A stretch of 64,000 nt of DNA from an uncultured Bacteroidales bacterium (GTDB lineage: Bacteria; Bacteroidota; Bacteroidia; Bacteroidales; Bacteroidaceae). Under the pieces are notes generated by a model. The model was not told the DNA's origin and did no database searches. It was given only the letters and a program-made list of their open reading frames with translations. The stretch lies in contig CADAGO010000010.1 of assembly GCA_902787555.1 (NCBI GenBank), forward strand, positions 1-64,000, in the 5' to 3' direction. Positions within the stretch are counted from its first letter, which is position 1, and each line of letters begins with the position of its first letter. Made by a program: the position numbers and the translations under genes. Positions 2,007 through 15,989 of this stretch are shown here, in pieces.

Positions 2007-3344
2007 TCATACTGCTGTCAACAGAAACGCCATGTACATTGGCATTGTCAGTAACTGATCCTTTCGTCCGATATTATAGTCGCCTAGTTTTATGGCACTC
2101 GTAACATGGTATTTCTCCGGATGATTCATCACGGTACGCATAGACTTGGCATTGCCTGTGGTAGCCTTACATTCCACAGGAGTGCATAGGCCTTTATAGC
2201 GTATGAGGAAATCAAGTTCCACACCTCCATCTTTATGAAAGTAATACAGCTTGCGTCCCATCTTACCAAAGATGTCTGCTACAAGATTCTCTTTGATGGC
2301 ACCATGATAACTAAGCAGGTCACCTTGCAATATGCTCGACTGAGTGCCATCTTCCAACATTGAAACGAGCAAGCCTATATCTGTCATATATACCTTGAAC
2401 TCGCTCTTGATTTTATGCCCGTCAAGCGGCAGTTCCGTTATCTCCGTATTATAGCATCTGCGAATGATGCCGGCATCCTCTATCCACTGCAGGCTTCCAG
2501 CATAGTCGCGTCCACGGCCTCCAGGACGTACAACGGTGTAACTGAACTTCTTATACTCACGGGCCAGCTGTGTGGGTATCGATTCGAAACATTCCCTAAT
2601 GCGCGACTTGTCGGCAGCAGGAGCATACTTCACCATGTCCGACTTATACTCATCCACGATGCGCCTCTGCACAGCAAGTACCTTGCCTATCTGCTTCGTT
2701 TCCATGAAGGTGGTCACTACCTCAGGCATACCTCCCACCACGATATACTGATGCAGCAGTTCGCGGAAACGATCGTGCAGCGCCTCCTCAACAGGTGTTT
2801 CGCTGTTCAGGCATTTCTTCAAGTAATCAAAGTGCATGTCCTTAATGCCATTGGCCCACAGCCACTCCTCAAAGTCCATCGGATACATATCCACAATATC
2901 CTCGAAGCCTACGGGGATAGAGGCTTCTTCCTCCTCCTTCTGCTCCTCGGGTGACTTATAGCCATTCACGCCCAACAGTGAACCAGTACACATCACCTCA
3001 TAGCGACCGTCCTGATGGAAATATTTCAGCGAGCCTCTTGCCTTCGGACAATCCTGAATCTCGTCAAAGACAAAGCAAGTCTTGCCTGGCTCAATCTCCG
3101 CATTGGGCATAGCTGCTGTAATGCGCATGATAATGGAGTCCACTTCCAGATTCGGAGTGAAGAATTTCTTGTAGTCCGGATGCTCACGGAAATCCAAGTA
3201 TACCACATGCTTAAAATGCTTTTGGGCAAAGTCCATCACACTGCTGGTCTTGCCGCACTGGCGGACTCCTTTCACAACGAGTGGCTTGTGAGAGGCATCA
3301 TCCAACCACGATTGGAGTACATTTTCTATCTTTCGCTTGTACAT
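2007..3344 (-). CDS. AAA-family ATPase with DUF4143 C-terminal domain
   Basis: This 445-residue ATPase carries a Walker A at residues 26-33 (GVRQCGKT), a Walker B at 90-97 (CFVFDEIQD), a sensor-like MCTGSLLG near 120, and a C-terminal DUF4143 region. The latter contains ELDFLI...PVECKA (about 375-395), the D...ExK pattern of a degenerate nuclease-like fold. Such proteins (COG1373) are abundant in Bacteroidetes and their function is largely unknown; several are linked to mobile DNA or defence. The gene stands alone with its own promoter box at 3408-3415 and faces the preceding pair convergently. No membrane segment is visible. Family assignment is secure, biochemical role is not. Confidence 0.9.
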   Translation of the reverse strand: MYKRKIENVLQSWLDDASHKPLVVKGVRQCGKTSSVMDFAQKHFKHVVYLDFREHPDYKKFFTPNLEVDSIIMRITAAMPNAEIEPGKTCFVFDEIQDCPKARGSLKYFHQDGRYEVMCTGSLLGVNGYKSPEEQKEEEEASIPVGFEDIVDMYPMDFEEWLWANGIKDMHFDYLKKCLNSETPVEEALHDRFRELLHQYIVVGGMPEVVTTFMETKQIGKVLAVQRRIVDEYKSDMVKYAPAADKSRIRECFESIPTQLAREYKKFSYTVVRPGGRGRDYAGSLQWIEDAGIIRRCYNTEITELPLDGHKIKSEFKVYMTDIGLLVSMLEDGTQSSILQGDLLSYHGAIKENLVADIFGKMGRKLYYFHKDGGVELDFLIRYKGLCTPVECKATTGNAKSMRTVMNHPEKYHVTSAIKLGDYNIGRKDQLLTMPMYMAFLLTAV

Positions 3345-3407
3345 ATTTACACATTTTCATGCCGAGTTTCAAATGCTTCACACACATTTTCCACCTGACT
3401 TTTGGCG

Positions 3408-3415
3408 CAAAGGTA
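3408..3415 (-). promoter_or_regulatory. Promoter of the DUF4143 ATPase gene
   Basis: On the minus strand the sequence reads TACCTTTG, a perfect TAnnTTTG box, about 64 bp upstream of the start codon at 3344. Confidence 0.6.
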
Positions 3416-3509
3416 CACAAAATTCTCAAATCTACCAAACAAAATTCTCAAAAGTTGCGATTTCTGACAAAAAACTCACATTTCCCAATCTTTTTCCTTT
3501 TGTTAACCT

Positions 3510-3720
3510 TTACAACTAAGCAATTAACCTATTAAGTAACTAAGCTAGTTCTCTCCCCCTCGGGGGGCATCGCTGAATGGGGCGATGCTTGCGACGACCG
3601 AGCATAATAGAAGCTCGGTTTGCGACGACGGAAGGTTTATCTTCCCAAAGGAGGACTCAAAGAGTCTTTAGGTTTATCTTCCCCAAGGAGGTACGAAGTG
3701 CATGGGAGAGGGGCTACTAA
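3510..3720. repeat. Hairpin and tandem-repeat cluster in a 480-bp gene-free gap
   Basis: The gap between the ATPase promoter and 3894 holds no convincing gene. It contains the spacer repeat (3513-3540), a CCCCC/GGGGG hairpin (3552-3567), GCATCGC/GCGATGC (3567-3573 with 3582-3588), CCGAGC/GCTCGG (3598-3603 with 3613-3618), the direct repeat TTGCGACGA (3589-3597 and 3620-3628), and two copies of ggtttatcttcc followed by ccaa(a)ggagg (about 3633 and 3671). It sits at the 3' end of the six-gene operon and may act in termination. From 3721 to 3894 I see nothing specific. Confidence 0.6.
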
Positions 3721-3894
3721 CCTATTAATAGCTGAGCAGGGAAGTGGTGTTGGGGTGTACAAAATGGTAGGTTATGGCATTCACATGTTGTGTAGTAACG
3801 ACTCTAAGTCATCTTCTGCAGCTATCTTACAGCTTAGTTCTTCCATCATGTATCCTCATGGCACATTGGGCACACTGAGTTGAGAAGGAAACTA

Positions 3895-6309
3895 TTACAT
3901 TTTTAATATTTTACGAACCTTACTGGGCGAAAGGAATTCGTATAGATATGGATCATCATAGATTTCTGTTATTATACCTTCAATTGTTTCAATTACGAAC
4001 TTCCTTCCAAGTGAAGTAACCTTCAATCGTATAATCTTTCCAATATCATGAGATGGGTAAATCATGACATATCTACCTACTAGAGAAGTACGACCTTTAG
4101 CATCTTTCCCGCTTTCGTTTATTTGTTCATCATTGTTACGTATTGATTCTACTACTATCTTTACAGGTGTGGGTATTGCGGTTTGTTCAAGGCTAACCAA
4201 GTATCCTTTTGAATTGTACCATTCTCCTAATACCTTTATTTCATATTGCCCGTTATTATTATTTAGTCTAATATCCTCGATTCGTTCTATTACATTTTTC
4301 TTATCGATATGTGAATATAAAGGAGTCTTTTCATAAGCCTTAATAATACTATTGGAGAGATCTATCTGTTTATTCCCAAACATTTTAATTTCCCAAACAA
4401 CTATGGAATCATCACGTAACAAAACTCTATATAAAATTTTATTGATTTCTACAATATTGCCAGAGCAAGAATATATCTTATCATATTGAGAGTTAAATAG
4501 ATAACTCAGGTTGTATTTGTTTAAATAATAATAAGAAGGTTGTTCACCTGTCAAAACAGGTATCTCTTTCTGATTTATTGGAGTGGTATCATTATTTGTT
4601 TTTAATAGTGTTACCAAATCATATATTTGTCTATTCTTATTACTCATAAAAACAGCCAATCTCCTATATGTAAAATCTAATAATGGGACATAATTATCCC
4701 TTAAGTATATCCTCCATTTTTTATCTATCTCAATATAGAAAGTGTCCCAATAATCACTATGAATAGAATATAAGCAACCATTTTCATGTTTTTGGGATCG
4801 CTTTTCTATTTCGTTGTTGAAGAGAGAGTTGTCAATCCATGGGTGAAGAAAACTGTATGGCAAACTTCTTGTAATTCTATCCAGACATTTCTTCACATTG
4901 TTATCGTCTTTTTTTTGTTCAATGATTGCGCATATATCTTCAATTTTTGATTCAGGCGATATACAAAGTGTTTTCTGCAAATCAGTAACCATAATACCTA
5001 AAGGATCTTTGAATCCAAATGAAAGATTACGGCGAATAATTGGGTGCCATGCATTAGCAAGCATTCTTATGTATATTGTCTTAACATCAATTTTGTACTT
5101 ATCGCTTATCTGGCAAATCTGAAGAATTGAGATAAACCAAAAGTAAAAAAAAGTTGTATCTGTATTAAAAAAAACAGTACATAGTCTATTTATCGATAAT
5201 TCTTCTGATAGAGATTTGGGTGACTCTTTATACTTTTCTTTTCTTACGACATCCTCACCATCCTCGTATTTTATAGTTAGGCTCAGATTAAAAGCATCTG
5301 ATAATGATTTAAGCAATTGAATCTTTGTTTCATTTGACATGTATGTATATACATACCATCCATCAACTTCTTTTTGCCATTTGTAATCTCCATCCCTTTT
5401 TTCCTTACATACTAAAGGGTAGCCGCTAAAAAGTCTTTCTTTATATGTGGAAACACGATCCAAACCAATATATTGAAGAGCCGAGACAAAAGTTTCTATG
5501 GCATTCTTTCTCATTATCTTATTACCATTAGGTAATATCACATATATGTTTTTGCTCTTTGTCCTTTGCCTATCTTCCTCAACATTATTGTTATTAAATT
5601 CTTCTTGACCTTCCCCCAACAGGCTATCATCGTTTTTATCAAAATAAATAGAGTGTGGAGATACTCCTTCTAGCTGACATTGCTTTAAGATAACATCAAA
5701 AAAATGCATACAACTGGAACTACGTCGGATTTGAGTACTTTGCGACAATCCACTCATGTATTTTTTTATATTAACATCCCTTTCCATTGATTCTGAAACA
5801 ATAAGATGAAAAAAAGGATTTCTAAGAAGTGTTCGGGCAGAAAGATATTGTCGCAATTCGTCATCGAGATCAGGGTATAGATACCCTAGACAAGTTAAGA
5901 ACCATTTTTTATAACAGCAATGAGTAAGCCCATGAAAAGAAGCCCCCTTTACATGGTTTTCTCCAAATTTTAACAATGCACCATCTTTTCTCTCTATATC
6001 ATCAGAAAACAAAGCCGCGCCTATTTCTAAACAATCCATGCCAGGATTGTCTCTGAATCTCATTACCTGACAAACATTGATTGTACTTGCTTCATAATTA
6101 CTAATTTGGGGTATGTCTGCGTTTTCAATAGGCTTAGGATTATAATGGGTACATACATAATCTATAAAATGTTGATATGGAGTAGAAACTATAGACATGA
6201 CATAATCTTCCACCTTGGATTGTGGAAATACATAGTCACGTTCGAACATATCTTCTGTAATTAAATCCTCAAAAGAATGATCGAAGAATTCTTCAATAAT
6301 TTCATCCAT
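3895..6309 (-). CDS. Large protein of unknown function, last gene of the radical SAM/ParB/SNF2 operon
   Basis: This 804-residue soluble protein is visibly A+T-rich. Four regions can be seen. Residues 70-215 include FGENHVKGASFHGLTH and LSQSTQIRRSSSC, resembling a winged-helix-like module found near Bacteroidetes restriction genes. Residues 255-350 (ILPNGNKI...ETFVSALQYIG...YPLV) resemble a small module often attached to restriction-associated proteins. Residues 375-600 contain MLANAWHPIIRRNLSFGFKD, which recalls the N-terminal part of Bacteroidetes HNH endonucleases, but I see no HNH motif. Residues 600-804 are beta-rich with VGRYVMIYPSHDIGKII near the C-terminus. These likenesses come from memory and need profile searches. 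The gene starts 11 bp after the upstream ParB-like gene, so co-expression is likely. A target-recognition or effector role is a guess. Confidence 0.85.
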   Translation of the reverse strand: MDEIIEEFFDHSFEDLITEDMFERDYVFPQSKVEDYVMSIVSTPYQHFIDYVCTHYNPKPIENADIPQISNYEASTINVCQVMRFRDNPGMDCLEIGAALFSDDIERKDGALLKFGENHVKGASFHGLTHCCYKKWFLTCLGYLYPDLDDELRQYLSARTLLRNPFFHLIVSESMERDVNIKKYMSGLSQSTQIRRSSSCMHFFDVILKQCQLEGVSPHSIYFDKNDDSLLGEGQEEFNNNNVEEDRQRTKSKNIYVILPNGNKIMRKNAIETFVSALQYIGLDRVSTYKERLFSGYPLVCKEKRDGDYKWQKEVDGWYVYTYMSNETKIQLLKSLSDAFNLSLTIKYEDGEDVVRKEKYKESPKSLSEELSINRLCTVFFNTDTTFFYFWFISILQICQISDKYKIDVKTIYIRMLANAWHPIIRRNLSFGFKDPLGIMVTDLQKTLCISPESKIEDICAIIEQKKDDNNVKKCLDRITRSLPYSFLHPWIDNSLFNNEIEKRSQKHENGCLYSIHSDYWDTFYIEIDKKWRIYLRDNYVPLLDFTYRRLAVFMSNKNRQIYDLVTLLKTNNDTTPINQKEIPVLTGEQPSYYYLNKYNLSYLFNSQYDKIYSCSGNIVEINKILYRVLLRDDSIVVWEIKMFGNKQIDLSNSIIKAYEKTPLYSHIDKKNVIERIEDIRLNNNNGQYEIKVLGEWYNSKGYLVSLEQTAIPTPVKIVVESIRNNDEQINESGKDAKGRTSLVGRYVMIYPSHDIGKIIRLKVTSLGRKFVIETIEGIITEIYDDPYLYEFLSPSKVRKILKM

Positions 6310-6320
6310 AAATAGTTATT

Positions 6321-7289
6321 TCATTCGGAAAGTTTTTTTATGCGTGTTATAATCCTATTCATTTCGTATTTAAAATCTTCATCTTCATTCATTAACTGAA
6401 GAACAAAATTCTGGTTTGTAAGGAATTCTCTGAATGCACTTGCAACCTTACGAGCATGTTTTTTTTGTTCTTCTTCAGACACTTTTGTTACGGCACTCTC
6501 CAAGGACTCTTCGTTATTAATATATGCTTTTAATGCATTGTTAGCAGCAGATGAGTTTACCTTTGCTAACTTCGCAATATCCCTGAATTCATTTGCTTTT
6601 GTTATACTTCCATCTTTAATTTTCTTACATAGAGTGTCAACAAGATTAAGTTCTGGGAAGTTTTGACTCTTAGTAACGATGTCACTATTCTTAAGCATTT
6701 CAAGATAATAACTCCATCTGCTTTGGTCTGTATCTTCGTTTGCTAACATTGTTTCATAGACCTTTACATAAAGCTTTGATTTTGCAGGAGTAAGGCCACA
6801 ATCTTTTGCAATGGCTTCAATTGGTTTCTTGGATTTTTGCAAATGGCGGAAAAGATAACCTGCTTGTTCAAATGGAGTCCATTCTGTGACACCGTCTATA
6901 TGAATAGAGCCAATTAGTGCAAATACAAGGTCATCGGACATGTTTGAGGGCAAAATATTGCATCTAACCTTTGCCCATTTAATTTTATCTGTACGACACA
7001 ACAACCTATAAGCAGCCAAACGACTATTCCCTTCAATAACGACCCCATTCCTTACAAATAAGGGATGTGTTAACCCACCAAATGCCTTTATTGAGGCTCG
7101 CAAACGCTTAACATTCTCAAGAGATGTCATAACATCTTCTATTTCTTTCTGACTTGGTTCGTAACCAGATGAACTATGTCTTAATGCCGAATACACACGA
7201 GGATTCTCTGGCCAAAACTTTAGTTCATCTACGTTCATCTCTTTTTCCTCATACTCAATGAGTTCTTGTAGAATTTGTATTTTACCCAT
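6321..7289 (-). CDS. ParB/sulfiredoxin-fold protein, second copy in operon
   Basis: The 322-residue protein carries the ParB N-terminal domain: ENPRVYS (about residues 28-34), GGLTHPLFV (about 71-79) and the core VIEGNSRLAAY (about 83-93). These are the NPR and EGN(R/S)R motifs of the ParB/Srx fold. A helical middle part with GLTPAKSKLYVKVYE (about 165-179) looks like the HTH that follows ParB domains, and the C-terminus is basic and coiled. Its start overlaps the SNF2 gene by 8 bp, implying translational coupling. It is clearly different in sequence from the other ParB-like protein in this operon. No ParA partner is present, so plasmid partition is unlikely. ParB-fold proteins can be CTPases or nucleases, and which applies here cannot be read from sequence. 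Confidence 0.85.
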   Translation of the reverse strand: MGKIQILQELIEYEEKEMNVDELKFWPENPRVYSALRHSSSGYEPSQKEIEDVMTSLENVKRLRASIKAFGGLTHPLFVRNGVVIEGNSRLAAYRLLCRTDKIKWAKVRCNILPSNMSDDLVFALIGSIHIDGVTEWTPFEQAGYLFRHLQKSKKPIEAIAKDCGLTPAKSKLYVKVYETMLANEDTDQSRWSYYLEMLKNSDIVTKSQNFPELNLVDTLCKKIKDGSITKANEFRDIAKLAKVNSSAANNALKAYINNEESLESAVTKVSEEEQKKHARKVASAFREFLTNQNFVLQLMNEDEDFKYEMNRIITRIKKLSE

Positions 7290-8760
7290 TACTGTCTATA
7301 TTTAATATTTCTCTAACCATATCACCATAACTATAATCGATTTCGTCTTGGTATTGCTCCAAGCTAATATCGCCCTGTGCTAAGAAAGCAGCACTCTGCT
7401 TAGCTTTTAAGAGTTTGTCAATCCACATATCGATACTCTCGGCAACCATCAAATTATAAATATTACATTGCTTTGTCTGCGATATGCGATGAATACGATC
7501 TTGAGCCTGCAGGTAATCATCTAAATTAAAGCCCCTATCATAGAATATACAATTGTTTGCCACAGTTAGGGTCAACCCCTCTTTGGCAGATTGCGGCGTA
7601 GCAAACAAAATCTTTGCATCCCCAAACTTAAATCTGTCAACAGATCGTCCACGTTCCTCAACACTCATCTTGCCTGTTATCTTAACAGCATCATATTGCT
7701 TGTATTTCTTTGTGAAGTAGTCAACGTTATCAGTAAAAATTGACCAGACAATCATTTTCTCGTCACGACTAATAATATCCGATATTAGATCATCTAGAGT
7801 TTCTTCTTTTCCTGAACAAACATCATATCTATCATCAAGCAATCTTGGATTGGATGCCACCTGCACCAAACGCAGTAAGCGTTTCAGCGAATCTTGGGAT
7901 TCATCGAATAATGCTGTTTCACCACGATGAATGGTCATCACCATTTCTGTTCGTATCTGCTCATAGATACGTCGTTGCTCATCTTCAAAGCCCACATAGA
8001 AAGATACGTATTTCTTTGAGGGCAATGAAATGATGCCACTATTTTTAGTTTCACGCACAGAGAAATCGTTTATTTTCTCGAAGATATGCGCTACGGCATT
8101 CTCAAAACGATCACGCTGAGATTCATTATGGCCTAAATCATTATTCAGGTTACACTCACTCTTGAACGCACTGAAATCGGTACCAAGGCTAGAGCCTTGA
8201 TCTAAGAAGAATACCTGCGCCCACAGGTCATAAGGACGATTTGCTACAGGTGTACCAGTCATAATGATCCTTATCTTGAAGAAAGGTGAGAGTTTGAAGA
8301 AATCCTGAGTCAGCTTCGACTCTGGATTCTTTATCTTTGTAGACTCATCAATGACAATACCCACATTTCTTGTTTTTAAAAACAATTCCATACGCTCAAC
8401 CTCACCAGACACGGTTTCAAAGTTGGTGATAACGACTTCTGCCCGGCTATTGAATACAAAGAAATTACTATGTCTGTTACTATCAAGAGTCTTGGGCCGG
8501 ATGTTGGTATGCTCACCAAATTCTTCTACCCAATTTTTTACCAACGTTTTCTTTGTAACTATCAGAACAGTATCAATCTCCCTTTCTTTAAGCCAATAAA
8601 GCAATAGGTCTATGGCAATCTTTGTCTTACCCAAACCCTGCTCGTGGAAGATGGCAGCATAGTCCTTGTCTTTGATTTCAAGGAAAGCCTCATGCTGATA
8701 GGGGAAGGCTTCATGCTTCGTCGAATAGTCGTAGTGCGACTTCTGTACTAACTTCTTCAT
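7282..8760 (-). CDS. SNF2/SWI2-family DNA helicase or translocase
   Basis: The 492-residue protein is a compact SNF2 ATPase. Visible motifs are I (HEQGLGKTKIAID, residues 39-51), II (IDES, 137-140), III (MTGTPVANRP, about 175), IV (IVWSIFTDNV), V (ATPQSAKEGLTL) and VI (QAQDRIHRISQTKQCNIYNL). It lacks long insertions or accessory domains, like phage and defence-island SNF2 enzymes. It would translocate on double-stranded DNA using ATP. The start overlaps the preceding nuclease gene by 4 bp (ATGA type), and its end overlaps the next ParB-like gene by 8 bp. The three products are thus probably made in fixed ratio and may act as one complex: motor, nuclease and ParB-fold factor. Annotation of the fold is very secure. 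Confidence 0.95.
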   Translation of the reverse strand: MKKLVQKSHYDYSTKHEAFPYQHEAFLEIKDKDYAAIFHEQGLGKTKIAIDLLLYWLKEREIDTVLIVTKKTLVKNWVEEFGEHTNIRPKTLDSNRHSNFFVFNSRAEVVITNFETVSGEVERMELFLKTRNVGIVIDESTKIKNPESKLTQDFFKLSPFFKIRIIMTGTPVANRPYDLWAQVFFLDQGSSLGTDFSAFKSECNLNNDLGHNESQRDRFENAVAHIFEKINDFSVRETKNSGIISLPSKKYVSFYVGFEDEQRRIYEQIRTEMVMTIHRGETALFDESQDSLKRLLRLVQVASNPRLLDDRYDVCSGKEETLDDLISDIISRDEKMIVWSIFTDNVDYFTKKYKQYDAVKITGKMSVEERGRSVDRFKFGDAKILFATPQSAKEGLTLTVANNCIFYDRGFNLDDYLQAQDRIHRISQTKQCNIYNLMVAESIDMWIDKLLKAKQSAAFLAQGDISLEQYQDEIDYSYGDMVREILNIDSNG

Positions 8761-9170
8761 GGCAACACTTCTCCTTTCCTCATTGGATCAACGGTATGGA
8801 ATGTAATATCAGACAAATCATAGGGTTTCCTGAAATTACGCAGGAAATTACGCATAGTCGCGTAGGAACTCCACGAGCATGACATAATGATATGGCGCTC
8901 TTGACTAAATGTTTTTACCTCCTTTATGTAGGAAGCAAGTTGGGCAACAGTATGCTTGTTGTTTATATCGTTATCTGTTTTGGCCTCGCCAATAATGATA
9001 TACTTTGGCGTATGCACATAGATGTCAGCACGAAAACCGTCAATAACCTTGGGAGGTGCCTTCCCAAGTTCGCCAAGATCGATAAACATCTGATTCTCTA
9101 CCAAATCAAATGTCCGCTTGATATATTGAACGGCGTTCTTTACAAACTGTCTATGTTCCTCTGACTCCAT
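8757..9170 (-). CDS. Small PD-(D/E)XK-fold nuclease-like protein
   Basis: This protein has only 137 residues. Residues 45-64 (GFRADIYVHTPKYIIIGEAK) show the PD-(D/E)XK layout: Asp49, then Glu62-Ala-Lys64, followed by a helix with AQLASYIKEV (Gln77, Tyr81) as in many restriction-type nucleases. The catalytic triplet appears intact, so metal-dependent DNA cleavage is plausible. There is no DNA-binding domain of its own, suggesting that specificity comes from partners. It sits 2 bp after one ParB-like gene and overlaps the SNF2 gene by 4 bp. The exact family is not known to me; VRR-NUC-like or a Holliday-junction-resolvase-like relative are alternatives. Confidence 0.8.
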   Translation of the reverse strand: MESEEHRQFVKNAVQYIKRTFDLVENQMFIDLGELGKAPPKVIDGFRADIYVHTPKYIIIGEAKTDNDINNKHTVAQLASYIKEVKTFSQERHIIMSCSWSSYATMRNFLRNFRKPYDLSDITFHTVDPMRKGEVLP

Positions 9171-9172
9171 GC

Positions 9173-10195
9173 TTATTGTTCGTATCTGCGTATGTTGTCA
9201 ATGATTTCCTGAAGCATGTCAGATAATGCCCAAATTGCATCACGTTTTTTCTCGCATGATGGTTCTGTCGCAAGACTCTTAATTTCACGGAAAGGCATAC
9301 CGTCAAAACGAGTAACAAGCTCGTTGCAAAGCATCTCGTATGGTACTTTATCGAGGTCTTTTACTGGAGACGGTGCGCTCTCTTGTGCTAAGACCTTTTC
9401 TGCTTCAGTTAGATTCTTCTTTAAGAAAGCGGCTTTGGCATTGTCGCTTTTTAGTACCTCTGGCAGTTTACGTACGCTGAGTGCTTTGTCAACATTGCCT
9501 TCTGCCACCCATTCGGCATAATTCTCAATCGTATAGCCTGCATTGGCTACAGCATTTTTAATTCTTGGGTTCTGATACTCCATGAACTTAGAAAACTCAC
9601 GAGTATCAAAGTCCAAATTATTATCTTCAATATATGACTTATAAGCGCCCTGCATACACTTGTAGGCATCTATCGACTTGTTTATTTCGTTGGTGTTGCC
9701 ACCACAGAGTGAGATTATTTGCGACATAGGCAGATATTCCACTTCACTCAGTTGGAAGAGGTATTTTGCTTTTGAGTATGGATCCCAATCTCGTGGCCCA
9801 ACAAGATGTGACTGCAAACGGATGGAATGGATGTCATATTCTGACATCTGCTCATAAAGTAATGCAGGTATCTCTGCCCATGTCCCATCTGGATTAGTTT
9901 CGTTGAACTCCTTGTAAATCTGTAAACGGGTGTTACCTTCAATGACAATCATATCACCAGATGCCGTGTGGTTCACAACAATGGGGTGAATAATACCTTT
10001 GCTAACGCGAATAGATTCGCGTAGAGTACGATAAGATGTAGTCGCATCGCCAGTTCCTGAGTCAGACAAAGCGAGTGCAATTTGCTCGCTAGTAGGCTCA
10101 CCGGCATAGTTTTCCAAGAACTGCTTGATTCTTGGGTTCTGACTATCTAGCTTTATCAAGTTGATGTCAATTTTTTGATACTTTGGCGCATCCAT
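9173..10195 (-). CDS. ParB/sulfiredoxin-fold protein, first copy in operon
   Basis: The 340-residue protein starts with a ParB-type domain: LDSQNPRIKQF (residues 16-26), GIIHPIVVN (about 67-75) and VIEGNTRLQIY (about 84-94), followed by MSQIISLCGGNTNEINKSID (about 156-175), which looks like a helix-turn-helix. The C-terminal third is helical. It differs from the second ParB-like protein both in spacing and in its C-terminus, so this is not a recent duplication. It lies 4 bp after the radical SAM gene and 2 bp before the nuclease gene. Possible roles are DNA loading or sensing by CTP binding, or nicking; the sequence alone does not decide. Confidence 0.85.
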   Translation of the reverse strand: MDAPKYQKIDINLIKLDSQNPRIKQFLENYAGEPTSEQIALALSDSGTGDATTSYRTLRESIRVSKGIIHPIVVNHTASGDMIVIEGNTRLQIYKEFNETNPDGTWAEIPALLYEQMSEYDIHSIRLQSHLVGPRDWDPYSKAKYLFQLSEVEYLPMSQIISLCGGNTNEINKSIDAYKCMQGAYKSYIEDNNLDFDTREFSKFMEYQNPRIKNAVANAGYTIENYAEWVAEGNVDKALSVRKLPEVLKSDNAKAAFLKKNLTEAEKVLAQESAPSPVKDLDKVPYEMLCNELVTRFDGMPFREIKSLATEPSCEKKRDAIWALSDMLQEIIDNIRRYEQ

Positions 10196-10199
10196 ATTC

Positions 10200-11564
10200 T
10201 TATTCTTTTGGTTTTAACTCTTCAAATCTTAAATCGAAATACTTCTTGGCTATCTCAGGGAATTCTGCCTCAAACTCCAACATTGTTCTATAGCATGAAC
10301 AAAAAGTGGGGCGTGGATTGAATCCCTTGGGGAATTCTAGTTTGGTATTATACACTCCTTTTTCGTTATCATACTGTATTCCTTGGTGATATTCTTCGTT
10401 TCTAACACAATACTGACGGAAGCTCATTTTCTTAAAAAAGCTTGGTTGGTTGCACCAACGAGCGAGTTGGATATACATGCTTTTGAATCTTGAATTCTTG
10501 TATTCCTCAAATCGCATGATGTATGGTAAGCAACCATATTCCATAAGCGTTTTTATTCTAAAGAACGTACCTTCTATATCTACCTCATCCTGACTGTCAT
10601 AGGCTACTAACACGTAGAGTTTGGTGGATTTCTTACAATGCTTTCGCCATATTTGCAATCCCTTAATCGTTTGTTCAACTTGTCTTCTCTCATTATCATC
10701 ATTCATTCTGTAATGATCGAATGCGAAAATATAATCACCATGATATTTTACTTCATTCAACAGCTGAGCCTTTTGCTCTGTCATCAGACGAATATCCATT
10801 CCTTGACGGAATTGAAAACTCTTTCCTGTATTCTTCAGGTCTTCCATCACTTTAGCAAATACCTTTGGGGGAGCGGCCATAATGTTATCATCCCACAGAT
10901 AAATATTTGCTCTTGTTTTGTCAAGAAACTCTGATACAGGTGACCATTCAACAACTCTGCTTAGTAATCTGTTCACACAGAATCCACAATGCCTGATGCA
11001 GCCACGAGTTGTGAATCCAATGGAATAGCTTAAATAGTCATCCCAGTCTCTTTTTTTCTTCTTTTCATCCCCTCCTGTCTTCCACTCAATATAGTCCGAA
11101 TATAGACTATAATCTGGCATAAAGTGCTCAACCTTCTTGGGCAATTCTGGACCGTTTATCTCAAAGAACCCCGTACCGCCATAACATATAAACTTCTTTT
11201 GGATCATTAAATATATAATGTCAGGCACTTGTGTAAATTTAAAAACTCGTGACATCACAAGCAAATCAAAATCCATAAAGTTAAGTCGCCCATCCTCTGC
11301 TACTTCATCATATGTTCGTACAAGTCTGACATCATGTCCAAAACTCTTACAATAGCCTGAGATCTTCAGAAGTGCAAGATTGGGATGACGGGTTCCATTA
11401 TCCAATAAGTCAGCATCTATGATGCCAATTCGTAATCGCTCACCTTCTTTCTCTATTAGGTCACAGCAATTAAAACCCTTATTGTTTTCTAACTGAATCA
11501 ACTTTACGCTGCAAGAGGTTACTTCTTGAAAAATTACACAAGATGGTTGTTCGGGACATCGCAT
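10200..11564 (-). CDS. Radical SAM protein with N-terminal cobalamin-binding-like domain, first gene of operon
   Basis: The 454-residue protein holds GFTTRGCIRHCGFCVNRLL, giving Cys189-x3-Cys193-x2-Cys196, the [4Fe-4S] site of radical SAM enzymes. Residues 45-130 (RIGIIDADLLDNG, a central LLVMSR strand, ICYGGTGF) look like a Rossmann-type B12-binding domain as in COG1032 proteins, though no DxHxxG signature is seen. Downstream, IYLWDDNIMA and FRQGMDIRLMTEQKAQLL fit a TIM-barrel. C-terminal cysteines (FCSCYRTM) could bind a further cluster. It would generate a 5'-deoxyadenosyl radical; the substrate (nucleobase, RNA, peptide) is unknown. The ATG at 11564 gives a Cys-rich N-terminus; a TTG about 21 codons later is an alternative start. 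Transcription probably begins near 11829. Confidence 0.9.
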   Translation of the reverse strand: MRCPEQPSCVIFQEVTSCSVKLIQLENNKGFNCCDLIEKEGERLRIGIIDADLLDNGTRHPNLALLKISGYCKSFGHDVRLVRTYDEVAEDGRLNFMDFDLLVMSRVFKFTQVPDIIYLMIQKKFICYGGTGFFEINGPELPKKVEHFMPDYSLYSDYIEWKTGGDEKKKKRDWDDYLSYSIGFTTRGCIRHCGFCVNRLLSRVVEWSPVSEFLDKTRANIYLWDDNIMAAPPKVFAKVMEDLKNTGKSFQFRQGMDIRLMTEQKAQLLNEVKYHGDYIFAFDHYRMNDDNERRQVEQTIKGLQIWRKHCKKSTKLYVLVAYDSQDEVDIEGTFFRIKTLMEYGCLPYIMRFEEYKNSRFKSMYIQLARWCNQPSFFKKMSFRQYCVRNEEYHQGIQYDNEKGVYNTKLEFPKGFNPRPTFCSCYRTMLEFEAEFPEIAKKYFDLRFEELKPKE

Positions 11565-11594
11565 TTAACGGATTATTAAGGCTATACTTCAAGA

Positions 11595-11750
11595 CCTCTA
11601 TGGACGAAAGAAGCGTGTCCGCTCCTTATCGAACATAGAGGCCCTGAGAACTGCCTTCCAAACGGATAAGTGACGTCCACGCTATGAAGCGCAGACATTC
11701 ACAATTATCGGTTGTTTGGATTATTAGAAATTTCTCAGGTTTCTATGTTC
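11595..11750 (-). promoter_or_regulatory. Highly structured 5' leader of the six-gene operon, two alternative folds
   Basis: The predicted leader runs from about 11829 to 11565 on the minus strand. Nested complementary blocks form one extended hairpin: 11742-11750 with 11631-11639 (9 bp), 11732-11739 with 11643-11650 (8 bp), 11714-11720 with 11657-11663 (7 bp), 11694-11709 with 11665-11677 (13 bp with bulges), and CGCT(TCAT)AGCG at 11680-11691 as tip. A competing hairpin pairs 11634-11641 with 11595-11602 (8 bp) and encloses 11602-11605/11617-11620. The two folds share 11634-11641 and exclude each other. This is the layout of a riboswitch or attenuator, but it could also be a palindromic mobile repeat. 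No known riboswitch consensus was recognised. Confidence 0.6.
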
Positions 11751-11835
11751 TCCGAATAACTGCTAATGCTGTTATTAATTCCACAAATTCCACTCCGCCT
11801 GCTCTCACCAGAACATGGGTGGCGAAGTTCAGTTG

Positions 11836-11878
11836 CAAAGATAATAATTAATGCATAATTCATAATGCATAATTCATA
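11836..11878 (-). promoter_or_regulatory. Promoter of the six-gene operon with 14-bp tandem repeat upstream
   Basis: On the minus strand 11836-11843 reads TATCTTTG, a perfect TAnnTTTG box, placing the start of transcription near 11829. The region where a -33 element would lie is occupied by two exact copies of ATGCATAATTCATA (11851-11864 and 11865-11878), which could be an operator or a spacer repeat. Confidence 0.6.
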
Positions 11879-11967
11879 ATTATTTGTGAATTTCTGTGTT
11901 TTTCTATTCAAAAACCTTGGTTTTTGATGAATAGATGGAGCAAATAGGTTATTTGGTTAATAGGTGA

Positions 11968-11999
11968 ATAAAAAACTCGCGAGCTTCACAGCCTGCGAG
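11968..11999 (-). terminator. Terminator of the DUF1016 gene
   Basis: On the minus strand CTCGCaGGCT-GTGA-AGCtCGCGAG is followed by TTTTTTATT. The loop and flank (GTGAAGC) resemble the terminator at 32822-32858, so the two may be copies of one terminator repeat. Confidence 0.75.
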
Positions 12000-12058
12000 G
12001 GAATAGCTTTTTGTTCTTATAATATAATCCTAATCCTTATTCTTGATTATTATCCTCT

Positions 12059-13180
12059 TCAATCAGTCGTTTCATCACCCAACTGCCGTTCAATCTCTTC
12101 GATGGTAGGAATGGTACCTTCTACCTTCTCGGGATAGAACTTCTCCAGGTCATACTCTGAAATAGCTAATGGCTGACTGCTTGACTCCAATGCATATTGA
12201 GCCTGAACACGGTCTTTTTCCTTGCAAATGAGCAGCCCGATGGTTGGGTTGTCACGTCCTTCCTTCCTCAGAACATGGTTGCAGGCTACTACATAGCCAC
12301 CCAACTGACCAATATCGGCAAACTCGAACTTGCCTATCTTCACCTCAATGACCACATAGCACGAGAGATTCAGATTGTAGAACAGCAAGTCGACAAATTG
12401 TTCCCGCTCACCCACTTGCAGCCGATATTCTTTTCCCAAATAGCCAAAACCAGTGCCCAGTTCTATTAAGAACTGAGTGATATTACTCAACAGACGGTCT
12501 TTCAGCAAGCGCTCGTTGTATGAGCCTGTGATGCCGGTGAATGCAAAATCGTAGGGGTCTTTGGTCAGTTCTTGTGCCAAATCGCTTGTCTCTTCAGGTA
12601 ATGTCCGCTTGAAATTAGTCAGTGCATGACCTTGTCGCTCATACAGGTCAGTGCCTATGAAGTTAAGAAGCATATCGCGGCTCCAGCCGTTTTCGATTGT
12701 CTGATGCACAAAGAACATAGCCTTTTCTGGCTTTTCTTTAAACTTATCGATAATGGAGCGATGGTGCCCCCAAGGTACGGAGAACAAATCATTTTGTATT
12801 TGCTCCACAAGTTGTGGAGTAATTATATTTCCCTTTAGCTCAACAACCTGTTGAGTAAATTGCTCCCCAACTTGTGGAGCAATTGCCAGATAGGGTTGGT
12901 AAAGCAGATAGAAATTCTTCATATACAGCAGATTCGTTTCAGAGAAGCAGGTTGCGTCAGGATTTAGTTTTTTCAAATCCCTACTCAGATTCTTCATGAA
13001 TCCGCTGCCCCAGCGACTGTCTGCTTTCTTCTCTACAATATCTTTGCCCAACTCCCAATAGAACCGCAGCATCTCCTCATTTACCTTCACAGCAGCTTTT
13101 ATCTGGCTTCTGCGATAGCGAGAGCTCAGTTCCTTGATCCACTGCAAGTAGTCGTTATCTAATATCATTAACTGTTTCAT
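12059..13180 (-). CDS. DUF1016 / PDDEXK nuclease domain protein (YhcG-like)
   Basis: The 373-residue protein has the DUF1016 N-terminal helical domain (residues about 10-95, with YWELGKDIVEKKADSRWGSG and MKNFYLLY) and the C-terminal PD-(D/E)XK domain (IPWGHH-type start at about 135, FVDLLFYNLNLSCYVVIEVK at about 262-281, then GQLGGYV and IGLLICK). The Asp and Glu-x-Lys of the active site are present. DUF1016 proteins are often found as solitary genes or beside type I restriction modules. Between the domains, residues about 98-130 contain repeated APQVGEQ / TPQLVEQ units encoded by near-palindromic TTGTGGAG-rich DNA, a hinge that varies within this family. The gene has its own promoter (13203) and terminator, so it is a single unit. 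A role in DNA defence or repair is inferred. Confidence 0.92.
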   Translation of the reverse strand: MKQLMILDNDYLQWIKELSSRYRRSQIKAAVKVNEEMLRFYWELGKDIVEKKADSRWGSGFMKNLSRDLKKLNPDATCFSETNLLYMKNFYLLYQPYLAIAPQVGEQFTQQVVELKGNIITPQLVEQIQNDLFSVPWGHHRSIIDKFKEKPEKAMFFVHQTIENGWSRDMLLNFIGTDLYERQGHALTNFKRTLPEETSDLAQELTKDPYDFAFTGITGSYNERLLKDRLLSNITQFLIELGTGFGYLGKEYRLQVGEREQFVDLLFYNLNLSCYVVIEVKIGKFEFADIGQLGGYVVACNHVLRKEGRDNPTIGLLICKEKDRVQAQYALESSSQPLAISEYDLEKFYPEKVEGTIPTIEEIERQLGDETTD

Positions 13181-13202
13181 GTAAGGCTTAGTTATTTCTC
13201 TG

Positions 13203-13210
13203 CAAAGATA
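13203..13210 (-). promoter_or_regulatory. Promoter of the DUF1016 gene
   Basis: Minus-strand TATCTTTG matches TAnnTTTG and lies 23 bp upstream of the start codon at 13180. Confidence 0.6.
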
Positions 13211-13318
13211 ATAAAAATAGTTTACGGCTTACAGCTTACCGCTTAAAAAATTGAAAAAATACGATGTTTTTCTGGTCAATATCCTAAGTTTTGCTGTATA
13301 AACGAGGATAATGGGTAC

Positions 13319-13347
13319 AAAAAAAAGGAGAGCCGAGGCTCTCCTGA
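13319..13347 (-). terminator. Terminator of the HU/smalltalk unit
   Basis: On the minus strand AGGAGAGCC-TC-GGCTCTCCT forms a perfect 9-bp stem followed by seven T residues. It lies 12 bp after the stop codon of the small gene at 13359. Confidence 0.9.
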
Positions 13348-13358
13348 TTGGATGAGGA

Positions 13359-13520
13359 TTACAGCATGGCGTGGAGGAATCCTTGTGCGCCTGCGGCGTG
13401 CATGGCTGCACTGGTGCCGAGTGCACTGGCGATGCCGGTGAGTACTGCGATGAGGAGCTTGATCCAGAAGCTGAGGTTCGTGCCGTTCTTGTCGGGGTTG
13501 TTGCCTGTGATGGTGCTCAT
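13359..13520 (-). CDS. Smalltalk-family small membrane protein
   Basis: The ATG at 13520 opens a 53-residue frame reading MSTITGNNPDKNGTNLSFWI, followed by one hydrophobic segment (KLLIAVLTGIASALGTSAAM) and a short tail. A single transmembrane helix and location directly after an HU-like gene fit the Bacteroidetes 'smalltalk' family, whose members are always about 30-55 residues and whose function is unknown. An AGGAGG-like ribosome-binding site (GGAAGGAGGTAGACC) sits right before the ATG, supporting translation. It is 15 bp downstream of the HU gene and upstream of a strong terminator, so both share one transcript. Confidence 0.8.
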   Translation of the reverse strand: MSTITGNNPDKNGTNLSFWIKLLIAVLTGIASALGTSAAMHAAGAQGFLHAML

Positions 13521-13535
13521 GGTCTACCTCCTTCC

Positions 13536-14339
13536 TTAGTTCTGATCTACGCCTCCACCGCCTCCGGTGCTGCCGCTGTTGATGACGAGGGTTGCATTGC
13601 CGTCGGGCATCTGGAAGGTACCGGTGTAGGTGCCGTCGCTTTCAGTCAGGGTGACTGAGCTGCCGTTGAGGGTTGCGGTCGGGGTCTGACCTTCGGCTGG
13701 GGTGACGCTGAGGGCTACCTCGGTGCCGGCTGCGATCTGGCTGCCGCTGTTCACTGCGTTGCCGCCTACGGTGACTGCTGAGCTGCCACTACCACTGCGG
13801 CTGATGGTCAGGGTTGGAACGGATGGGGTCTGGCTACCGCTGTTGCTATTCTCACTCCCCTCGCCTTGAGGAGAGGGGTCGGGGGTGAGGCTATCCTCAT
13901 CGTCTTCTACATCTCCACCGTCGGTGGTGACACGCTTCACGATGTTGCCGTCGCGGTCGATACAGGTGATGTTGATGCTGGTTGCGGCCAGTTCCTTCTT
14001 GATGTCCACGGATGGGGTGAACACGATGCGCTTTGCCTTGATGAGGTCCACGCCTACCTTCTCCAGCTTTGCTGCCTGGGCGCGGACTGCGAAGCGGATG
14101 GTTCCGAGACCTGGGATTGCTACCGAGTGACCTTCAGTGGCCCATGCCTTGATCACTTCGCCTGCTGCGTCCCAGCAAGCCTGCATCACGCCTTGACTCA
14201 CACCGCTGCGGAGGGCAGCCTCCTTGATCACCTTCTTCTGATTCAGAGCCAGATAGAGCTCTGGGGTCATCACGTAATAGTAACCGGGATTCTTTCCGAT
14301 CTTGAGCTCGGTTTCACGAGCATTTACTTTGATTGCCAT
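13536..14339 (-). CDS. HU-like DNA-binding protein with C-terminal Ig-like tail
   Basis: The 267-residue protein has an HU/IHF-type fold at residues about 1-130: MAIKVNARETELKIGKNPGY, SGVSQGVMQACWDA, then HSVAIPGLGTIRFAVRA, the Bacteroidetes 'HU-HIG' form. A spacer from about 148-175 contains SLTPDPSPQGEGSE, which is not HU sequence but the translation of a GC-rich palindromic repeat inserted in frame (DNA 13851-13893). The C-terminal 90 residues are Ser/Thr/Gly-rich with TLTISRSGSGSSAVTVGG, resembling a bacterial Ig-like beta domain. It is the usual first gene of the HU/smalltalk/VirE cassette. It binds DNA; what it organises is unknown. The tail ends in a GGGGG-VDQN stretch. Confidence 0.88.
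   Translation of the reverse strand: MAIKVNARETELKIGKNPGYYYVMTPELYLALNQKKVIKEAALRSGVSQGVMQACWDAAGEVIKAWATEGHSVAIPGLGTIRFAVRAQAAKLEKVGVDLIKAKRIVFTPSVDIKKELAATSINITCIDRDGNIVKRVTTDGGDVEDDEDSLTPDPSPQGEGSENSNSGSQTPSVPTLTISRSGSGSSAVTVGGNAVNSGSQIAAGTEVALSVTPAEGQTPTATLNGSSVTLTESDGTYTGTFQMPDGNATLVINSGSTGGGGGVDQN
13851..13893. repeat. GC-rich palindromic repeat inside the HU-like gene
   Basis: CTCCCCTCGCC...GAGGAGAGGGG followed by CGGGGGTGAG is a palindrome-rich block of the same kind as those at 14416, 22832 and 58655. It is translated in frame as LTPDPSPQGEG. Confidence 0.75.
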
Positions 14340-14658
14340 AGTTTTGAGATTTAGTTTACTGTTTACGGTTTACCGTTTACAGTTGGGTTAATAAATTGGT
14401 TAATAGATAAGTTGAACCTCCCCCGCCCCCTCCCAAGGAGGGGTGTCCCGTCTTCTCCCCTTGGGGGAGATAAGAGAGGGGTTTGGTTTTTATTTTTGTT
14501 CCCCTTAAGGGAAAATTTTGTTACCCCTAGGGGCTGCAAAAAATCACGCTTGATTTTCACTGGTGACAAATGCGGTGCAAGAGCGAATGCAGAACCGAAC
14601 TTGTTCGAGTTTTGCTGAGCCGAAGCCCGCATTGCAGGACCATCTTTAAATGGTACTG
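14340..14658. repeat. Leader region of the HU gene built of dispersed repeats
   Basis: There is no gene. It holds the motif gtttac repeated with small changes (14353-14384), the spacer repeat with ggttaata (about 14386-14400), and a long GC-rich palindromic block (14416-14530) with CCTCCC.../...GGAGGGG, CTCCCC/GGGGAG, CCCCTTAAGGG and CCCCTAGGGG hairpins. On the minus strand this would form the 320-nt leader of the HU transcript. Confidence 0.65.
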
Positions 14659-14666
14659 CAAAGTTA
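14659..14666 (-). promoter_or_regulatory. Promoter of the HU/smalltalk unit
   Basis: Minus-strand TAACTTTG matches TAnnTTTG. It implies a leader of about 310 nt before the HU start at 14339. Confidence 0.5.
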
Positions 14667-14737
14667 CAACATTGGCATTGCGGTCTACGAATAATTCATT
14701 AACTTTTTTACTTAAAAATGAAAAATTTTTCGAAGCG

Positions 14738-14892
14738 CTGTCACGACTGTCACGACTGTCAATTGTCATTAAGAGTTTTGGAACACGAAAAATGTTCATA
14801 TAATATATATTATTAAAAATAATATATATTATATGGCATGAAACCCCAATCCGAAATCCTTAATGACAGTCATGACAATGACAGTGATGACA
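14738..14892. repeat. 155-bp symmetric dyad with A+T-rich palindrome at its centre
   Basis: The left arm (14738-14773, repeats of GACTGTCA ending ATTGTCATTAAG) is mirrored by an inverted right arm (14859-14892, CTTAATGACAGTCATGACAA then TGACAGTGATGACA). Exactly in the middle (centre near 14816) lies the perfect 39-bp palindrome 14797-14835, CATATAATATATATTATT-AAA-AATAATATATATTATATG in two halves. The left arm recurs as a direct repeat at 19530-19565. It lies between the divergent HU and VirE-side promoters, so it may be a binding or recombination site. 14893-15008 shows nothing further. Confidence 0.85.
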
Positions 14893-15008
14893 ACGTTCAA
14901 TAAAAATTGGGCTTTGAGAGCAAATCGAGGGGTGGCTGTTTTGGCTGCCCCTCTACGATTGGTTGTGGTGGGGTGTTGAAAACTTTTTGAAAACTTTTCG
15001 TGTTTATA

Positions 15009-15040
15009 TTTGGTGGATTGAAAAGAAAAACATACCTTTG
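15009..15040 (+). promoter_or_regulatory. Promoter of the VirE-side gene run
   Basis: TTTG at 15009-15012, 20 bp spacer, then TACCTTTG at 15033-15040: a near-ideal Bacteroidetes -33/-7 pair, 65 bp before the ATG at 15106. Confidence 0.8.
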
Positions 15041-15105
15041 CAGCTAGTTTAAATTTCGAGATAATTCTTATTATTTTACACTTCTTTTGCTAAAACAGAC
15101 AAGTT

Positions 15106-15528
15106 ATGAAAAATGTTAATGAGAAAATCAGGGAATGGGCTGAAATGGCTCATGAGATGGTGGTCAAGCTGGAAGAGCTGGAGGCCACGAAATTGGAATT
15201 GGCAACAGCACAAGCAGAGATTAAGGCACTGAAGGCAGAATTGGATGCTATGAAAAAGGCAGATGACGAGTGGGGTTCGCGTGTGACTTATGATAACATG
15301 GTGGAGCAGATTGCTGCGTGTGAAGATACCAAGGAGCGTGACGAGGCTCGCAAGTTGATTGAGCCTCTACTGAAGAGGAGTACTGTGACTAAGTTCCGCA
15401 GAGATATTAGGAACAGGGCGAAGGAGTTGAACGAGGGGAATGGTACCAACATCACCATTCAGCAGGCGGAGGTGAAGGTATCGGGCAATTGGAACGATGT
15501 GCACGACAATCAGAATGTGAAACTTTAA
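15106..15528 (+). CDS. Hypothetical coiled-coil protein with DVHDN motif
   Basis: The 140-residue protein begins with a long amphipathic helix, rich in Leu, Glu, Ala and Lys (residues about 5-55), that is likely a coiled coil. A helical middle part (DNMVEQIAACEDTKERDEAR) follows, and the C-terminal NITIQQAEVKVSGNWNDVHD ends in NQNVKL. The tail motif V-x-G-N/S-x-x-DVHDN-x-NV-x-L is repeated in the next gene. I do not recognise a known function. It is the first gene after the promoter at 15033. Similar small proteins accompany VirE-type cassettes in Bacteroides, which suggests a role in that element, but nothing more can be said. Confidence 0.75.
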   Translation: MKNVNEKIREWAEMAHEMVVKLEELEATKLELATAQAEIKALKAELDAMKKADDEWGSRVTYDNMVEQIAACEDTKERDEARKLIEPLLKRSTVTKFRRDIRNRAKELNEGNGTNITIQQAEVKVSGNWNDVHDNQNVKL

Positions 15529-15542
15529 ACTCGGACGTCTCG

Positions 15543-15989
15543 ATGGCAGGAAATAATATCTATGTGCAGGGGTCGTATATCGACGTGCACGACAACGAGA
15601 ACGTGTATCTTTCGGTCGACAAGGCCGAGGTGAACATGAAAGGGCAGGAGGCTGGTGAGCATCAGTCGCGCGAGGAGCGTGTGGCTGCTAGTATGCGCCA
15701 TGTGGTGGAAAGAAACCTTATGCAGAAGAAACAGGACTGGGCTGCCATCTACCAGGTGCTTCTTGACGAGGAAATCTACGAGAAACTGACGAAGACCGAC
15801 TTTGTGAAGAAGGTGCAGACGTTGGGATTTACGCCCGAACTTGTGCCTTCTAGCAGCTCTAATATAGATAAGGTGATGTTTTCGAAAGCCTCGAAGTATC
15901 CAGCGTGGCGCATCACAGGTTTTGCTGACGAAGAGACCGACAGAGTTACTGCTTTAGCATCAGCATTTTTGACATTTTATCGGAGCTAA
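15543..15989 (+). CDS. Hypothetical protein sharing the DVHDN motif
   Basis: From the ATG at 15543 the 148-residue protein reads MAGNNIYVQGSYIDVHDNEN, then VYLSVDKAEV: the same GxYxDVHDNxNVxL block that ends the upstream protein. The remainder is helical (RHVVERNLMQKKQDWAAIYQ) with a C-terminal segment around PAWRITGF. The frame is open further upstream to a TTG at 15489, but the ATG 15 bp after the previous stop is the natural start. No enzymatic motif is visible. The strand-rich repeated block suggests that both proteins have a small beta-helix-like or interaction tail; they could bind each other. A terminator follows at 16022. Confidence 0.72.
   Translation: MAGNNIYVQGSYIDVHDNENVYLSVDKAEVNMKGQEAGEHQSREERVAASMRHVVERNLMQKKQDWAAIYQVLLDEEIYEKLTKTDFVKKVQTLGFTPELVPSSSSNIDKVMFSKASKYPAWRITGFADEETDRVTALASAFLTFYRS

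Follow-up and report, generated by a model that had tools for sequence, protein, structure and literature searches.

SNF2-type motors are part of several described defence systems, among them DISARM, Zorya, BREX and ARMADA, and in restriction-modification (R-M) systems as in DISARM a methyltransferase holds the slot of the enzyme that marks self DNA. The locus considered here combines such a motor with a radical S-adenosylmethionine (SAM) enzyme. It consists of six genes in a stretch of 64,000 nucleotides from an uncultured Bacteroidales bacterium (hereafter the window), which is the start of contig CADAGO010000010.1 (C10) in assembly GCA_902787555.1 (2.69 Mb in 55 contigs). The genes encode a radical SAM protein (rSAM), a putative ParB-fold protein (ParB1), a small putative PD-(D/E)XK nuclease, the SNF2 motor, a second putative ParB-fold protein (ParB2) and an 804-residue protein that we call the adaptor (Table 1). 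A preliminary description had proposed them, from the letters of the window, as an unnamed defence or modification system. With a probability of roughly 0.5, we read the six genes as one version of an unnamed, recurring and mobile R-M-like system directed against foreign DNA. The most telling facts go beyond that first description: the rSAM slot is kept although the enzyme in it differs, the C-terminus of the last protein can be swapped, and the leader and, in one genome, the chromosomal site are shared with R-M operons.

The gene set recurs in unrelated genomes, which the preliminary description had named among the checks to make. When viral contigs were scanned with the rSAM protein, one of them showed the gene order of the window, and all six genes are present in a genome of the same family and another genus (G346). 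A three-sequence ParB1 alignment run against the genome collection yielded 104 candidate stretches, of which 8 were confirmed as loci, namely five in Bacteroidales (including SUXS01000004), two in Clostridia and one Bacillota fragment at a contig end. Searches with SNF2 added alphaproteobacterial plasmids (Rhizobium, Mesorhizobium, Roseomonas) and viral contigs; among the best 80 of 211 matches of the viral scan, seven core SNF2s stood at 47-80% identity and the next at no more than 31%. After uniform re-annotation of 24 rows, with duplicates of one contig counted once, the complete core, ParB1-nuclease-SNF2-ParB2, was found in the same order in 19 of them, spread over Bacteroidales, Clostridia, alphaproteobacterial plasmids and viral contigs. 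Three of the five remaining rows are fragments at contig ends (L021, L027, L028); in the last two, the divergent loci L042 and L158, the SNF2 is more distant and there are two or three ParB genes. Because the order recurs in unrelated genomes and three core genes are under selection (see below), a chance cluster of genes was rejected.

An rSAM gene accompanies the core in 19/19 complete loci, or in 17/17 when we leave aside the window and L162, the latter having been found only through the rSAM query. In five of the 19, the window and its Bacteroidales kin, the enzyme is of one type (A), with rSAM first and the adaptor behind the core. In the other 14 it is of a second type (B) and adjoins a GHKL ATPase, a pair that runs opposite to the core in L033, L041 and L084; DGQHR (DndB/DpdB-like) proteins join the core in 7 of these 14. 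Core and rSAM are the constant parts of the system, and its lineage-variable part is either the GHKL ATPase (14 loci) or the adaptor (5 loci). In a tree of 37 SNF2 rows, the 19 core SNF2s form one clade (100/99), with the SNF2s of the divergent L042 and L158 as the next to join (99/99). The five type-A rows branch from among those of type B, next to two rows from Clostridia and one viral contig (100/100). Since the Bacteroidales type is nested in the GHKL type, the rSAM type changed while its slot stayed, and the simplest reading of the tree is that an ancestor of type B may have given up rSAM-B and GHKL and taken in a phage-type rSAM-A with the adaptor instead. As the operon is otherwise conserved, the change of rSAM type suggests that what is needed is the reaction rather than the particular protein.

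The same tree separates the core SNF2s from all 16 generic phage SNF2 helicases that it includes, a result that bears on the origin of the set. The preliminary description had allowed for a phage-derived module, and held that a standard phage replication module would speak against a system of its own; of this, what stands is that the window rSAM belongs to a family common in phages, whereas the core SNF2s form their own clade and are not found among the phage helicases. A related explanation is that the core is a module by which mobile elements compete or maintain themselves, handling prophage or plasmid DNA with partition-like clamps and a replication or repair motor, or excluding rivals, with no part in host defence. 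Core loci indeed lie on IMG/VR contigs and on plasmids, two of the latter typed as conjugative, and in an archaeal-virus genome (vir335) the genes for an SNF2 helicase, an rSAM and a ParB-like protein are adjacent. We nevertheless consider this explanation unlikely, given the separate SNF2 clade, a core in L023, where the surrounding genes appear, by eye, to be chromosomal, the presence of the six genes at a site that an R-M operon occupies in another genome, and the position of an rSAM-B-GHKL pair beside DISARM proteins, the last two of which are described below.

As to the proteins themselves, the domain calls of the preliminary description are borne out by Pfam for SNF2 (PF00176 at 9.8e-31, PF00271 at 2.2e-17) and by PHROG for rSAM, ParB1 and ParB2, and the call of the nuclease stands by its motif, with no usable match in Pfam, PHROG, NCBIfam or PADLOC. 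SNF2 identity is 43-84% across 12 relatives, and that of ParB1 41-97% across seven. Both ParB proteins match phrog_3694 (ParB1 at 4.7e-11, ParB2 at 7.4e-09), and ParB2 also matches phrog_620, 'ParB-like partition protein', at 1.7e-6; in Pfam, ParB1 has a weak ParB_N match (0.0092) and ParB2 no ParB match. A GNxR motif is conserved in both families, and the ParB fold binds CTP, ATP or GTP in the tested cases given in the available part of PMC12704722. The small protein is classed as a probable PD-(D/E)XK nuclease on its D ... (D/E)xK motif, of which the form D-x(12-14)-E-A-K is kept in 20/20 family members. Between the window and its nearest relative, L021, the ratio of nonsynonymous to synonymous substitution rates (dN/dS) is 0.017 for ParB1, 0.016 for SNF2 and 0.062 for the nuclease, and these three core genes are thus under strong purifying selection; in this comparison dS is saturated for rSAM, and ParB2 and the 804-residue protein lie outside the L021 contig, and with L022 dS is saturated in three comparisons.

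The window rSAM matches phrog_9298, 'radical SAM domain protein', at 1.4e-49, and has no radical SAM match in Pfam. Its iron-sulfur motif CxxxCxxC begins at residue 189 and is kept in 23/23 rSAM proteins examined. The start of the protein is uncertain: relatives align from about residue 21, a TTG codon stands at residue 22, and translation may in fact begin some 21 codons further downstream. Types A and B find each other at phmmer E values of 1e-4 to 1e-6, and type A is nearer to phage proteins (up to 51% identity on viral contigs, 25-40% in phage records) than to type B. Among the best 80 of 127 confirmed viral rSAM-A loci, probes for ParB1, ParB2 and the nuclease matched only at the locus of the system itself. 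Around the remaining 79, a DNA methyltransferase lies within 6 kb in 46, as opposed to 4 of 73 control loci (phage loci with generic SNF2 helicases), and a SAM synthetase lies nearby in 19 of the 79 and none of the 73. In four phage rows (L008 at 10000-14908, L278, L305 and L269), a ParB-methyltransferase, an rSAM, a C5-methyltransferase and in part a SAM-synthetase-like gene stand together, which suggests a SAM-hungry DNA modification.

The chemistry of the rSAM can be read in more than one way. That it acts as a marking or licensing enzyme we would put only slightly short of even odds. Alternatively, it could make an antiviral small molecule, such as a viperin-like modified nucleotide, with the DNA-processing genes as a separate layer, and radical SAM enzymes with antiviral nucleotide products do exist in the viperins (PMC11291487, in its available part). 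For the window this is improbable: its rSAM matches none of the PADLOC families at E ≤ 1 and hence no viperin, on which ground the viperin reading was rejected; no kinase family was found among the nine proteins scanned with Pfam; the gene sits in a tight operon with a DNA motor and a nuclease; its viral relatives lie near DNA methyltransferases; and the weak structural matches (model with a mean predicted local distance difference test score of 73.7; best PDB matches the B12-type MgmA, 9ccb, at 2.2e-3 and AprD4, 6fd2, at 3.2e-3) point to B12-type radical SAM enzymes. Of the defence or modification system first proposed, then, the recurrence across phyla and the defence contexts hold up, a modification role of the rSAM would fit its phage relatives, and the link to viperins falls away.

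The rSAM-B-GHKL pair also occurs with partners other than the core. A GHKL gene adjoins rSAM-B in 24/24 loci examined, that is, the 14 core loci together with L042, L054, L055, L158, L159, L165, L166, L168, L170 and L171; on the viral side these include the best 14 of 80, the remaining 66 standing at 35% identity or less. The partner is a divergent SNF2/ParB set in L042 and L158, and a large DndB-like protein in L054 and L055 (PF14072 at 3e-12 and 9.9e-15). A HerA-like ATPase stands beside the pair in L170 (7f6d at 2.5e-43), with a weaker PADLOC match to HerA in L166 and a resemblance only in L171. On the viral contig L168, which ends near the row, DrmA (2.8e-161), DrmB (1e-52), a NERD helicase, rSAM-B and GHKL follow each other in one row at 3002-13484. 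No recognised partner was seen in L159 and L165, the second of which starts at a contig end. Indirectly, the methyltransferases near the viral relatives and the DISARM proteins adjoining the pair in L168 argue for an rSAM that acts on DNA.

One could speculate further that an entire unnamed family of defence systems that target DNA tells self from non-self by an rSAM-made mark, and that phages use type A to mark their own DNA in the same manner. We regard so wide a reading as doubtful. In such a family, the rSAM, usually with GHKL, would install a DNA mark, and the effectors would be interchangeable: ParB-nuclease-SNF2-ParB, HerA with perhaps a NurA-like partner, DrmAB, or large DndB-like proteins. 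The HerA-like ATPases of L166, L170 and L171 are without a standard Walker A motif and are preceded by a partner gene of 367-409 residues and unassigned family; a NurA identity for this gene, which it resembles, was dropped, with no library match for L166 and L170. On the alphaproteobacterial plasmids (L038, L039, L040, L042, L054, L055), a PIN-like nuclease gene and a second GHKL ATPase lie beside the rSAM-B operon, and neither of the two has a PADLOC match in L038.

In the Bacteroidales type, the place of GHKL is taken by the adaptor, whose helical N-terminal part of about 225 residues is common to all five members. Pfam, NCBIfam and PADLOC give no match to the window protein at E ≤ 1, and its single PHROG match stands at 0.22; its structure model is confident for residues 1-226 only, and a structure search returned no PDB match at E ≤ 0.001, some of the best, non-significant matches of the N-terminal part being what we take to be winged-helix proteins. 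Behind this part the members differ. The adaptors of L002 and L022 carry a C-terminal S24 peptidase domain (1e-13 and 9.6e-18), and that of SIG130 an S24 domain (9.5e-10) together with a domain like SBDHga1 (8h0l, 2.2e-10); SBD domains bind sulfur-modified, that is phosphorothioate, DNA. In L023 no domain was found behind the N-terminal part, S24 included, and the window adaptor has no S24 match in Pfam, its C-terminal portion of about 580 residues being weakly like two annotated HNH endonucleases (E values of 2e-4 and 7e-4; 23-25% identity). In two of the five members an extra gene of unassigned family follows the S24-bearing adaptor (L002 at 14363-15907, L022 at 7035-8228), and a reverse transcriptase suspected in L002 had no Pfam match and was discarded.

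The S24 (LexA/UmuD-like) domain in 3/5 adaptors raises the alternative that the rSAM is a sensor of SAM, oxygen or DNA damage, which triggers the nuclease core through GHKL or the S24 adaptor, as in an SOS-like response or abortive infection. GHKL ATPases are conformational switches, which would suit such a part. The adaptors of the window and L023, however, have no S24 match, and the conserved cluster motif of the rSAM argues for catalysis, so that we would give this alternative little credence, slightly less than the mobile-element module.

A further line of evidence comes from the DNA around the operon. Its leader of about 265 nt has a minimum free energy (MFE) of -103.3 kcal/mol (z -6.8) and no Rfam match at E ≤ 1. 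Leader matches, some as short as 21 nt, occur in 33 of 301 genomes of the family, its own included, and RNAalifold on 10 leader sequences gives 72 consensus pairs, 24 of them with two-sided changes. Of the ten best places besides its own, nine (L072-L078, L080, L081) have a complete downstream gene; in 8 of these 9 it is a type II methyltransferase or a type IIG enzyme, and in the ninth a TPR gene whose row also contains an SLFN-type helicase. The leader was rejected as a conserved part of the system, since it has no match in front of six other members (see below) and fronts R-M operons instead; being common to both kinds of operon, it offers a handle for finding further Bacteroidales defence operons. 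In G315, a genome of the same genus, contig C43 matches the window at 11665-12060 (84-91%) and again at the 3' flank (Table 1), and the space between these matches is taken by genes for two methyltransferases and for an AlwI restriction endonuclease (RE_AlwI at 6.7e-44), the last 27 bases of that operon overlapping the downstream match. Because matches stand on both sides of the operon, the two genomes share the site. Adjacency to the HU-domain gene (HU-HIG family; window 13536-14339) was rejected as proof of this by itself, since the gene is multi-copy, with 10 matches in its own genome (G000) and 18 in G315; partial copies of it stand at several contig ends. The 3' flank was likewise rejected as a general cassette boundary: 5/301 genomes match it, only G315 over 109 bases beside an R-M operon and the others over 21-66 bases elsewhere.

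The layout given in the preliminary description agrees with what we find: all six open reading frames are in place on the minus strand, and spacings computed from their coordinates are 4, 2, -4, -8 and 11 bp. Its A+T-rich composition unlike the neighbours is seen in a guanine-plus-cytosine content of 31-42% over 4-12 kb (eight steps of 1 kb each), compared with 45-55% in the steps of 13-34 kb. For the promoter box it reported, TATCTTTG is a possible reading, on the minus strand near 11836-11843, presumably of the Bacteroides TAnnTTTG promoter type, and Pfam confirms the DUF1016/YhcG and DUF4143 genes among those flanking the operon. The closest relatives of the window ParB1 are Bacteroidales/Prevotellaceae records.

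Table 1 Features of the six-gene locus in the window
Feature	Position	Strand	Remarks
rSAM	10200-11564	minus	Open reading frame confirmed
ParB1	9173-10195	minus	Putative ParB-fold protein with EGNTRL motif; PHROG matches
Small putative PD-(D/E)XK nuclease	8757-9170	minus	D49, E62, K64 motif
SNF2-family DNA motor	7282-8760	minus	Pfam matches; most conserved core protein
ParB2	6321-7289	minus	Putative ParB fold, EGNSRL motif; ParB1 paralogue (27% identity)
804-residue adaptor/effector	3895-6309	minus	Conserved N-terminal part, replaceable C-terminal part
Promoter-like box TATCTTTG and structured 5' leader RNA of ~265 nt	11565-11845	minus	MFE, covariation
3' flank common with same-genus genome G315 (82%)	3718-3825	minus	AlwI R-M operon there replaces the six genes

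Taken as an R-M-like system, the six proteins could work as follows. ParB1 and ParB2 would load on DNA as putative nucleotide-controlled clamps, the SNF2 motor would translocate along it, and the nuclease would cut DNA that is unmarked. The rSAM would covalently mark DNA, or else some part of the complex, so that self can be told from foreign, and would thus fill the slot held by the methyltransferase in R-M and DISARM. The last protein would be a sensor or regulator, a winged-helix-like adaptor with S24 or phosphorothioate-binding-like domains in relatives. That the system protects against foreign DNA we consider quite likely, and the context supports defence. If the proposal is true, radical SAM chemistry joins the self-marking toolbox of bacterial immunity, an undiscovered DNA modification is predicted, and the phage family phrog_9298, named by its domain only in PHROGs, gains a testable function.

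Several observations weigh against this proposal. Core loci are often on viral contigs or plasmids, and it could therefore be the element, and not the host, that they benefit. The structure search with the rSAM gave no match at E ≤ 0.001, and the B12 motif DxHxxG is present in 0/23 rSAM proteins (first 130 residues), so that, the fold likeness also being weak, dependence on B12 was rejected. By the probes used, 33 of the 79 viral rSAM-A loci are without a methyltransferase, and the control is imperfect: the probes come from rSAM-A phages, there is relatedness among the 79 loci, and their flanks are longer on average (9.2 as opposed to 7.8 kb), so that the methyltransferase figures show an association and not its strength. 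No such leader turned up in front of the rSAM gene in six other members, one of which, L021, has no more than 49 bases there, and the exchange at the same site is seen in one genome, G315, where the genes just outside differ except for the multi-copy HU gene. The program behind the SNF2 tree warns of long branches among the generic rows. Finally, ParB1 at E ≤ 1e-25 finds the query genome only, among 344 genomes of the order and likewise against 345 genomes of a Clostridia order. The system is rare and patchy in its distribution; ParB2 at E ≤ 0.001 is found in 3/301 genomes of the family, namely its own, G346 with the system, and G454, where a ParB-like gene stands without a core.

How, then, does the locus compare with what has been described? 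PADLOC models (2023) match single proteins (SNF2, DGQHR and, weakly, ParB), and no named system was matched as a whole in the libraries tried, in agreement with the preliminary description, which knew of none with this composition. Nor is the set described in the literature searched, including the available parts of PMC10853773, PMC12839542, PMC11291487, PMC4158269, PMC12458937 and PMC12704722, a scope outside which lie subscription papers and most preprints; it may be listed in defence catalogues newer than PADLOC-DB 2.0.0 (2023). What is new on this scope is the composition and organisation, and we infer a new mechanism.

Membership in DISARM, Dpd, Dnd, Zorya or BREX was rejected, as required components are unmatched in the six proteins. 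DISARM resembles the system in its motor set and in an enzyme that could mark self, and L168 has DrmA, DrmB and the NERD helicase beside rSAM-B-GHKL, but none of the six proteins of the window matches DrmA or DrmB (PADLOC, E ≤ 1) or, in Pfam, NCBIfam and PADLOC, a methyltransferase, and the window SNF2 scores 65 bits with the DrmD model, for which the cut-off is 950. With Dpd and Dnd, the wider system shares the DGQHR proteins of 7/14 rSAM-B loci, and the window SNF2 matches DpdE models over its motor part; the six proteins match neither a DpdA enzyme (tRNA-guanine transglycosylase-like), preQ0 genes nor DGQHR, which sets them apart from Dpd, and neither a DndC/SspD PP-loop enzyme, DndD/SspC nor DGQHR, which sets them apart from Dnd/Ssp. 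A sulfur-DNA-binding-like domain is present in the SIG130 adaptor. Zorya (ZorD model at 6.8e-46) and BREX (BrxH) have an SNF2-type motor in common with the locus, but in PADLOC the six proteins match none of the further components of either system, ZorA/ZorB in the one case and PglZ and BrxC in the other among them. ARMADA, too, has an SNF2-type motor; the available main text of a paper on the YprA family (PMC12458937) contains neither 'ParB' nor radical SAM. Prokaryotic viperins are radical SAM enzymes from defence contexts as well, and differ in that the window rSAM has no PADLOC match. The phage phrog_9298 cassettes hold the same rSAM family, with methyltransferases and SAM synthetase as its neighbours there. 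From the type II R-M systems of Bacteroidales, finally, the six genes differ in that they hold a nuclease-like protein, by its motif, but no methyltransferase match; common to both are the structured leader RNA and, as G315 shows, the site.

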